Assembly (NCBI GenBank): GCA_001873285.1
Contig: MNYV01000015.1
Coordinates: 1 to 10,454, forward strand
DNA: 10,454 nucleotides
Source: Nitrospirae bacterium CG2_30_53_67
Lineage (GTDB): Bacteria > CG2-30-53-67
Direction: 5' to 3'
The position numbers and the translations under genes are program-made. Below the pieces are notes generated by a model that saw nothing but the letters and a program-made list of their open reading frames with translations, searched no databases and was not told the origin of the DNA. Shown here piece after piece: positions 676 through 1,818 of the stretch. Position 1 is the stretch's first letter. Every line of letters begins with the position of its first letter.

Positions 676-907
676 CTGAAAATTTCCCACGTGGTACCAC
701 CCTGTTTCAGTGAGCCAGGGACCCGACCCCGGTCACCCTTATTTCCGGCAGGATGACGGCCGCCAGCCGGCGAAGACTACGGCTGTCCTGATCAACAGGT
801 TCACCTTCGCGACTCCGAGGCGAGTTCAGGGCGCCCTGCGCCGGCTCGCAGCATCCGCCGGCTCTCTAAGGCAGGGGGGAACCCTTACTACTCCTCTTCA
901 CAGTTTT
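632..907 (-). promoter_or_regulatory. T-box riboswitch (tRNA-Leu sensing) controlling leuA
   Basis: This is a transcriptional attenuator that reads uncharged tRNA. On the minus strand the core AGGGTGGTACCACG (703-690) matches the T-box consensus AGGGTGGNACCGCG at all but one fixed position. The variable bulge base is U, which would pair with A73 of tRNA-Leu. Upstream are stem I hallmarks: GAAGAGGAGTAGTA near the 5' end, AGAGAGCC and GCGAGCCGGC in the distal arm, and GAACTCGCC in the specifier loop, placing a CUC leucine codon at 824-822. CAGGG (704-700) can pair with CCCTG (668-664) to form the antiterminator. CCCTG shares bases with the terminator stem, so the two folds exclude each other. 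The 5' boundary is estimated from the promoter. The inference is that leucine starvation allows read-through into leuA. Confidence 0.92.
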
Positions 908-913
908 TACCCT

Positions 914-943
914 ATACTACTACAAAACCTGATTCTGTTGCAA
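914..943 (-). promoter_or_regulatory. Candidate sigma-70-type promoter of the T-box/leuA transcript
   Basis: Minus-strand TTGCAA (943-938) and TAGTAT (919-914) are separated by 18 nt, each with 4 of 6 consensus matches. Transcription would start near 907, just ahead of stem I of the T-box. The -35 hexamer lies inside the terminal repeat of the palindromic element at 929-1060. This is inferred from sequence only. Confidence 0.45.
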
Positions 944-1060
944 ATGCTCCAGATGCAAGGCACGATATTTACTGGCGAATGAGGCGTACTTTTCTGGTAC
1001 GCCGCAGTGAAGCCAGAATATATCGTAACGCCGCAGATGGGGTATTTGCGGCAGAATCAG
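929..1060. repeat. MITE-like snap-back palindromic element, 132 bp
   Basis: The ends are inverted repeats: CTGATTCTGTTGCAAAT at 929-945 and the complement of ATTTGCGGCAGAATCAG at 1044-1060, 15 of 17 identical, with both differences still G-U pairs in RNA. Pairing continues inward: 947-951 with 1038-1042, 954-956 with 1033-1035, ACGATAT (962-968) with ATATCGT (1020-1026), CTGGC (972-976) with GCCAG (1012-1016), and a perfect 7-bp tip GGCGTAC (983-989) with GTACGCC (997-1003). Almost the whole element folds into one hairpin. It has no coding capacity and no clear target-site duplication. It fills the space between the pssA stop and the leuA promoter. It could be a non-autonomous MITE, a REP-like repeat, or an RNA-stabilising 3' hairpin for the ilv-pssA message. 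Copy number in the genome is unknown. Confidence 0.7.
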
Positions 1061-1818
1061 TCTTCTTTTACTACATCTTCATCATCTATGTCAAGTACAT
1101 CCACGCTTTTTTTGTGGCGGATCCCCTCGACCACTCCGGAAAGGGCATAGACCACGCTCATCAGAAAGAGGACGGATTCCGGATCGGCTGCGATCACCAG
1201 GGCGCCGAGAACAAGGAAAAGCAGGATCTTGAAATGGCGCCGTTTGATCAGATCGATGTCCTTAAAACTGTAGTAGCGGATATTGCTGACCATGAGGAAG
1301 GAGATGCCGAGAACCACGACCACAAACCAAAACGGCTTGTCCGATTCGGAATACCCGAAGAAATGATGGTAGGCAAGAACGGATGTGGCGATCACTCCGG
1401 CCCCAGCCGGAATGGGAAGACCCACGAAGTATTTCTTGTCCGCCACGTCGGTATTCACATTGAACCGCGCCAGGCGGAAGGCGCCCGCCACCATGAAGAG
1501 AAAGGAGGTCAGCCATCCGATCCGGCCGAAAGGCTTCAGCGCCCATAAAAAGCTCAGAATAGCCGGGGCGATCCCGAAGGAGACCAGGTCGGAGAGAGAG
1601 TCGTACTCAACCCCAAACTTTGATGATGTATGCGTCCACCGTGCGATCTTGCCGTCCACGGAATCAAAGATCGCTCCGATCAAAATGGCTATGGCCCCCT
1701 TCTCGTATTCTCCATTGACCGAGGCGATAATCGAGTAGAACCCGGCAAAGAGATTTCCGGTGGTAAAGATATTGGGAAGAAGATAAATCCCCTTGGGGCG
1801 TTCAACGGTATGGTTCAT
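1057..1818 (-). CDS. pssA: CDP-diacylglycerol--serine O-phosphatidyltransferase (phosphatidylserine synthase)
   Basis: This integral membrane enzyme makes phosphatidylserine from CDP-diacylglycerol and L-serine, the precursor of phosphatidylethanolamine. It has 253 residues, a normal length. The CDP-alcohol phosphotransferase motif is complete: D52, D55-G56, A59-R60, G69, D73 and D77. FVGLPIPAGAG from 131 is typical of the PssA branch. Hydrophobic segments lie near 20-35, 42-54, 78-92, 102-116, 138-152, 164-180 and 197-228, and the tail is acidic. The start at 1818 (MNHTVERPKGIYLLPN) was chosen over an in-frame ATG at 1857 because the family begins near this point and AGGGTG lies about 8 nt upstream, while the longer form has no ribosome site. 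It is the last gene of the ilvB-ilvN-ilvC run. A psd gene, a frequent partner, is not adjacent. The stop codon lies in the palindromic element. Confidence 0.93.
   Translation of the reverse strand: MNHTVERPKGIYLLPNIFTTGNLFAGFYSIIASVNGEYEKGAIAILIGAIFDSVDGKIARWTHTSSKFGVEYDSLSDLVSFGIAPAILSFLWALKPFGRIGWLTSFLFMVAGAFRLARFNVNTDVADKKYFVGLPIPAGAGVIATSVLAYHHFFGYSESDKPFWFVVVVLGISFLMVSNIRYYSFKDIDLIKRRHFKILLFLVLGALVIAADPESVLFLMSVVYALSGVVEGIRHKKSVDVLDIDDEDVVKED

Follow-up and report, generated by a model that had tools for sequence, protein, structure and literature searches.

The long hairpin between pssA and the leuA leader in the window (the whole stretch of 10,454 nucleotides that was analysed) belongs to a large superfamily of imperfect palindromes, found mostly in Deltaproteobacteria/Desulfobacterota. 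It is a lineage-specific insertion at the point where the 3′ end of pssA meets the leuA T-box leader. Within the superfamily, three end types with different target-site-duplication lengths (approximately 6–8 bp, 4 bp YTAR and 3 bp TWA) surround one folded core, and the + strand of this core appears to be constrained as a single strand. Taken as a whole, the element is very probably a non-autonomous, MITE-like mobile palindrome that inserted in the lineage of this species. The MITE-like reading follows from the many dispersed copies, the empty orthologous site, and the terminal inverted repeats and target-site duplications of sister types.

Structure of the element

The + strand of window positions 929–1060 forms one long interrupted hairpin that pairs from end to end (Table 1). 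Minimum free-energy folding as RNA gave −77.3 kcal/mol, against a mean of −35.7 for shuffled sequences (z = −11.0), and none of 200 shuffles folded as well. The − strand folds worse (−56.5, z = −6.9), because the G-U pairs of the + strand become A-C there. When the same segment was folded as single-stranded DNA, the + strand reached −38.4 (z −8.5) versus −30.5 (z −5.6) for the − strand. The 17-bp ends, CTGATTCTGTTGCAAAT and CTGATTCTGCCGCAAAT, match at 15 of 17 positions, and both mismatches are G-U on the + strand. They enclose inner stems and a tip with the arms GGCGTAC/GTACGCC. The initial annotation had described the palindrome with the same coordinates, ends, inner stems and 7-bp tip, all of which are reproduced here together with the strong fold, and it had seen neither a transposase nor a target-site duplication at this copy, which is also our result.

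The element is 132 bp long, and is thus short (<500 bp), as well as non-coding, dispersed and multi-copy, as MITEs are. Terminal inverted repeats, a further property of MITEs, are present in the window copy (15/17) and measure about 20 bp in two of the sister types described below, B and D. The sister types fit the definition of a MITE, and so does the window copy, with the exception of the target-site duplication.

Table 1. Features of the window around the palindromic element
Feature	Position	Strand	Remarks
leuA, partial	1–557	−	
T-box leader of leuA, neighbour outside the element	662–910	−	Rfam RF00230, 100 bits; right behind pssA in relatives G001–G005
25 bp gained along with the palindrome relative to the empty site of the congener	904–928	+	
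Imperfect-palindrome element, end type A (CTGATTCTGTTGCAAAT ... ATTTGCGGCAGAATCAG)	929–1060	+	Fold z −11; repeats in own genome and relatives; empty site in relatives
Stretch matching covariance model R1 (conserved folded core and inner arms)	940–1048	+	97.4 bits, E 1.7e-23, with the window copy itself among the 26 members used to build the model
Left core motif AGATGCAAGG	951–960	+	Unpaired GA and AA conserved; invariance partly due to ascertainment, since the search pattern included the motif
Tip hairpin ATGAGGCGTAC-loop-GTACGCCGCA	979–1006	+	Common to end types A–E
Right core motif TAACGCCGCAGATG	1025–1039	+	Conserved AAC bulge (columns 97–99, AAC 100%) and GA (106–107); outside the search pattern
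pssA-like CDP-alcohol phosphatidyltransferase gene	1057–1857	−	Pfam PF01066; TGA stop overlaps element end
Further genes: ilvC, ilvN, ilvB, PBP5-type carboxypeptidase, isocitrate/isopropylmalate dehydrogenase family gene (PF00180), rhomboid gene		−	

Insertion between pssA and the leuA leader

In seven of seven relatives (G001–G007) pssA adjoins leuA, and the element is absent from the junction in all seven. The congener, G001, has 16 nt between two conserved blocks that in the window lie 166 nt apart (29 + 132 + 5), which amounts to a net gain of 150 bp in the window. Judged against the congener, the insertion exceeds the palindrome by approximately 25 bp on the left (904–928). They may be a copy of the pssA end that has since diverged (GTAGTA...ACTG recurs), or else a left module. 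The stop codon of pssA (1057–1059, − strand) falls inside the element end. The same TGA is found in the same place at the empty site of the congener, and the stop was therefore kept, not created, by the insertion. When the junction was compared with the congener, no clean target-site duplication could be named for the window copy.

With a stop codon on one side and a T-box leader on the other, and with a very stable fold, the element might suggest a local regulatory or 3′-end structure of pssA or leuA, such as a terminator or part of a riboswitch. We find this hardly credible, since the relatives keep pssA beside leuA but lack the structure there, no promoter- or terminator-like site was found around the window element, and many copies lie elsewhere. 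An ancestral local structure of pssA/leuA is refuted by the empty site in G001–G007. The initial annotation had proposed comparing this gap in close strains, and had named a single copy kept in position by all relatives as the sign of a local structure; the opposite was observed, with many dispersed copies and a junction that is empty in all seven relatives.

The sequence CTTGACATnGAnGAnGAnGATGTAGTAAAA at the 3′ end of pssA (window 1066–1094, − strand) is conserved almost unchanged across six genomes, third positions of codons included. It may be the leuA promoter, in which case the element would lie between promoter and T-box and would be transcribed in the leuA leader. The insertion may thereby or otherwise have acquired a new effect on leuA expression.

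Copies in other genomes

BLASTN searches gave 14 matches in the element's own genome, counting the window copy (13 further), and copies were also detected in five relatives. In most of the own-genome matches the core was common, but the ends were not. A covariance model, R1, was built from 26 diverse copies. It matched the host genome 74 times and the congener 66 times; three other members of the family gave 42, 22 and 24 matches, and the next family 2 and 0. The number of model matches in eight other genomes ranged from 2 to 144, with 144 and 100 in two distant genomes. The guess of a mobile repeat in the initial annotation is therefore upheld by both kinds of search, each of which found many copies in the source genome and its relatives.

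A pattern scan of approximately 85,000 genomes returned at least 118 stretches; among the matches listed, the labels were mostly Deltaproteobacteria, Desulfobacterales, Syntrophobacterales or Geobacter, with some Methylomirabilota. Plasmid and phage sequences gave no match, nor did viral contigs. At the gathering score Rfam held no family for the element and matched only the adjoining T-box, and a full-text literature search for the element's sequence strings returned none. Some A-type copies occupy orthologous places in sister species (L019/L024 and L018/L033), so that not all of them are recent. Between these orthologous copies the terminal stem shows paired substitutions; L018, for instance, has GCGCTGC/GCGGCGC where L033 has GCGTCGC/GCGACGC.

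End types and target-site duplications

Type A, that of the window copy, has the ends TGATTC...GAATCA and is without a conserved left module; no clear target-site duplication could be demonstrated for A-type copies. In type B, TGATGGnCTCGTAAAAAGTC is followed, after a spacer of approximately 10–20 bp, by the same end once more, and then by the core and a further end. Type B has a target-site duplication of approximately 6–8 bp, with 5.30 of 8 positions matching in an 8-mer frame, versus 3.79 when shuffled (maximum 4.08 in 1000). Type C, with ends TnCAGGnTGTTGAAAAA..., is flanked by a 4-bp YTAR duplication, 14 of 31 copies having identical 4-mers versus 3.4 in shuffles. Type D begins GTGGTCCTGTTCGTAAATA... 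directly after TWA and makes a 3-bp TWA duplication (identical 3-mers in 22 of 23). The D-end sequence AGTGGTCCTGTTCGTAAATA matches 168 times in the host genome, corresponding to roughly 85 copies. Type E is represented by three copies (L240, L245 and L250).

Copies of types D and E match model R1 with E values of about 1e-7 to 1e-10, so the presence of a common core in different end types is statistically supported. B ends were also found around other fillers without the core, which indicates that ends and core are separable. The D type is a near-perfect palindrome of 163–190 bp that occurs roughly 85 times in its own genome of 2.36 Mb (L237–L255).

Conservation of the core

In an alignment of the 26 diverse copies, 89.5% of the cells of a 36-pair structure were paired, compared with 79.6% when the 3′ letters were redealt and 30–45% when they were slid. 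Double-sided changes occupied 92 cells, versus 26.7 after shuffling. We also compared 48 sister pairs, chosen disjoint to lessen shared ancestry although they only approximate a tree, and found, within the inner stems, 43 double changes that preserve pairing. On the + strand of the same sister pairs, changes between Watson-Crick and G-U numbered 94, versus 28 between Watson-Crick and A-C (binomial p about 1.6e-9). As the orientation of copies relative to genes is random (see below), a process blind to strand should give equal numbers of G-U and A-C. The large excess of G-U on the + strand therefore argues for constraint on one strand in its single-stranded form, and backs the earlier suggestion that differences preserving G-U pairs mean that a single-strand fold matters. 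Several unpaired bases outside the search pattern are also fixed, among them GCA (columns 75–77), GA (80–81), AAC (97–99) and GA (106–107).

Quasi-palindrome correction is a known mutational process, and pairing could be kept without selection if each arm served as the template for correcting the other, through template switching or gene conversion; the compensatory changes would then be mutational. The arms of the end types do co-vary in step, and tandem arrays of A-type copies in one relative (G002) show recombination. However, correction of this kind predicts strand symmetry, contrary to the ratio of 94:28, and the unpaired GA, AAC, GCA and GA have remained uncorrected and nearly invariant over many genera. 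We consider this explanation improbable.

RNA or single-stranded DNA

Tolerance of G-U (G-T) does not separate RNA from single-stranded DNA. With a crude ORF caller, the + strand was co-directional with the flanking genes in 48 cases and opposite in 41, while 30 copies lay between divergent and 21 between convergent genes. This random orientation (48:41) disfavours a cis-regulatory RNA and favours a role as single-stranded DNA or one autonomous to the element. At the window site, moreover, a leuA or pssA transcript would carry the weaker − strand fold. A role as cis-acting RNA is thus unlikely. The initial annotation had left RNA and folded single-stranded DNA as alternatives; constraint on a single strand stands, and RNA acting in cis is disfavoured.

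The copies could still encode or contribute a structured RNA, either an independent small RNA or processed read-through, the constraint on the + strand then reflecting RNA function. Such a reading would account for one-strand tolerance of G-U and for the compensatory changes. RNAs, too, typically contain tandem GA/GA internal loops, and other MITEs yield sRNAs (Coxiella QMITEs, PMC5896051). Random orientation to neighbouring genes, the weaker − strand fold in leuA/pssA transcripts at the window site, the lack of a promoter- or terminator-like site around the window element and the lack of an Rfam match speak against it, and we judge it unlikely, although the element might produce a transcript of its own. 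A role of the conserved + strand core as single-stranded DNA, for example during replication or transposition, is the reading that we favour, though tentatively and at slightly less than an even chance. On the closed chromosome CP070774.1, eight of nine good matches would point one way if the origin lay at position 0; since the sampled GC skew shows no clear origin there, we draw nothing from this replication-strand comparison.

Candidate transposases and a proposed mode of propagation

We judge it very probable that the element is mobile or MITE-like. Among the DDE_Tnp_1 transposase genes of G000–G002 (G000 being the host genome), none was bounded by A–D ends, except for an insertion sequence nested inside a MITE, and no autonomous element carrying any of these four kinds of end came to light. 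The autonomous partners of MITEs are frequently missing. Insertion sequences of the IS5 family use YTAR and TNA targets. In their duplications, IS5 subgroups resemble the C type (4 bp YTAR) and the D type (3 bp TWA); unlike IS5, the elements described here were not accompanied by a transposase gene with matching ends among the DDE_Tnp_1 genes of the three genomes. An integron attC site was rejected, as the R′/R″ core sites (RYYYAAC...GTTRRRY) are missing at the palindrome ends, which read TGATTC...GAATCA.

A REP/REPIN-type repeat moved by a Y1 (RAYT) transposase would share the palindromic, intergenic character of the element, and Y1 transposases are present in its own genome (3 matches) and in relatives. 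The 30 Y1 loci retrieved had no core within 1.5 kb, however, and Y1 genes are equally present in G007, which is without the core. REPs are mostly 20–50 nt long (PMC12306157), versus a unit of 130–200 bp here, and the sister types make DDE-like target-site duplications. This origin is very improbable, and membership of a REP/RAYT system (REPtron) was rejected because at the 30 loci the repeat does not flank or accompany the Y1 gene.

In the pathway that we propose, the element would be moved in trans by a DDE-type transposase that is now absent from the draft genome or unrecognised in it. The + strand hairpin, with its fixed unpaired GA, AA and AAC, would act as single-stranded DNA in the element's own propagation, and might for example be bound by transposase or a host factor once the strand is exposed. 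A transcript regulating neighbouring genes would be less likely than such a role. More speculatively, the core may be an independent module, a single-strand-specific hairpin with fixed GA, AA and AAC bulges captured by different, unrelated transposition systems. It would aid any carrier, for instance through contact with a widespread protein when single-stranded DNA is exposed, and would thus act as a 'passport' common to mobile palindromes of Desulfobacterota and neighbouring phyla; we regard this extension as conceivable but less likely than not.

Relation to known elements

Like the bacterial MITEs ERIC, Correia and QMITE2 (PMC10969869, PMC5896051), members of the superfamily are short, non-coding, palindromic, intergenic and dispersed, with terminal inverted repeats and a stable fold. 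Target-site duplications (here in sister types) and copy numbers from tens to over 100 are also shared with bacterial MITEs; for ERIC the likeness is one of general architecture, as given in the review (PMC10969869). What sets the superfamily apart is a strand-biased core common to families with differing ends and duplication lengths in many genera. MITEs themselves are known, but in the literature searched we found no account of a strand-specific core shared by MITEs that belong to several transposition systems.

Chunjie is described as a MITE of 178–235 bp in Geobacter uraniireducens, located within an operon and with 37 further copies (PMC10969869). By that description it resembles the superfamily in being a multicopy MITE of a deltaproteobacterium, and it may be identical with one of the B–D types. 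The multicopy families of Geobacter metallireducens are reported to include 24 'predicted short RNA elements' with the central palindrome GRCGTAGCGCTGCTACGCC, and similar sequences are reported in Desulfotalea (PMC2700814). By its consensus phrase, the one part compared, the GRCGTAGCGCTGCTACGCC family has a tip-like stem resembling GGCGTAC/GTACGCC, and it is intergenic and multicopy; the main text of that report is without ends, core bulges and target-site duplications for it (PMC2700814). Going by these descriptions, part of the superfamily may already be on record as Chunjie or as the G. metallireducens families.

In the usual view MITEs consist of ends plus filler, whereas in this superfamily conservation is greatest in the filler, and it is the ends that vary. 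At least three lengths of target-site duplication around one core, with apparent constraint on one strand, amount to an inverted pattern of conservation, which is the less expected result. If confirmed, the superfamily would provide a natural data set, with tens to over 100 copies per genome, on the purpose of a hairpin inside a mobile element, and model R1 could be used to label many of the intergenic hairpins of Desulfobacterota genomes that so far lack an explanation.

Nested, tandem and composite copies

At one locus of the host genome (L191, G000:C60:8605-8956) a D-type element lies inside the tip loop of a B-type element, which indicates that the hairpin loops of these elements are insertion targets. 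The region C150:5797-7724 (L189), considered as a candidate autonomous element, was rejected because it consists of an IS1182-like insertion sequence (542-aa ORF) nested in a B-end MITE of G000, where it splits the CCCTCTCCC filler. The tandem arrays of G002 (L017 and L022, on contigs C228 and C221) contain three A-type copies near contig ends, with a period of about 133–138 bp. In eight copies (L052, L057, L103, L105, L118, L136, L139 and L154) a second sequence, beginning TTTACCC, is present at one point of the right arm, after CGCARTGA. To judge from its shared position, this insert suggests amplification of composite elements.
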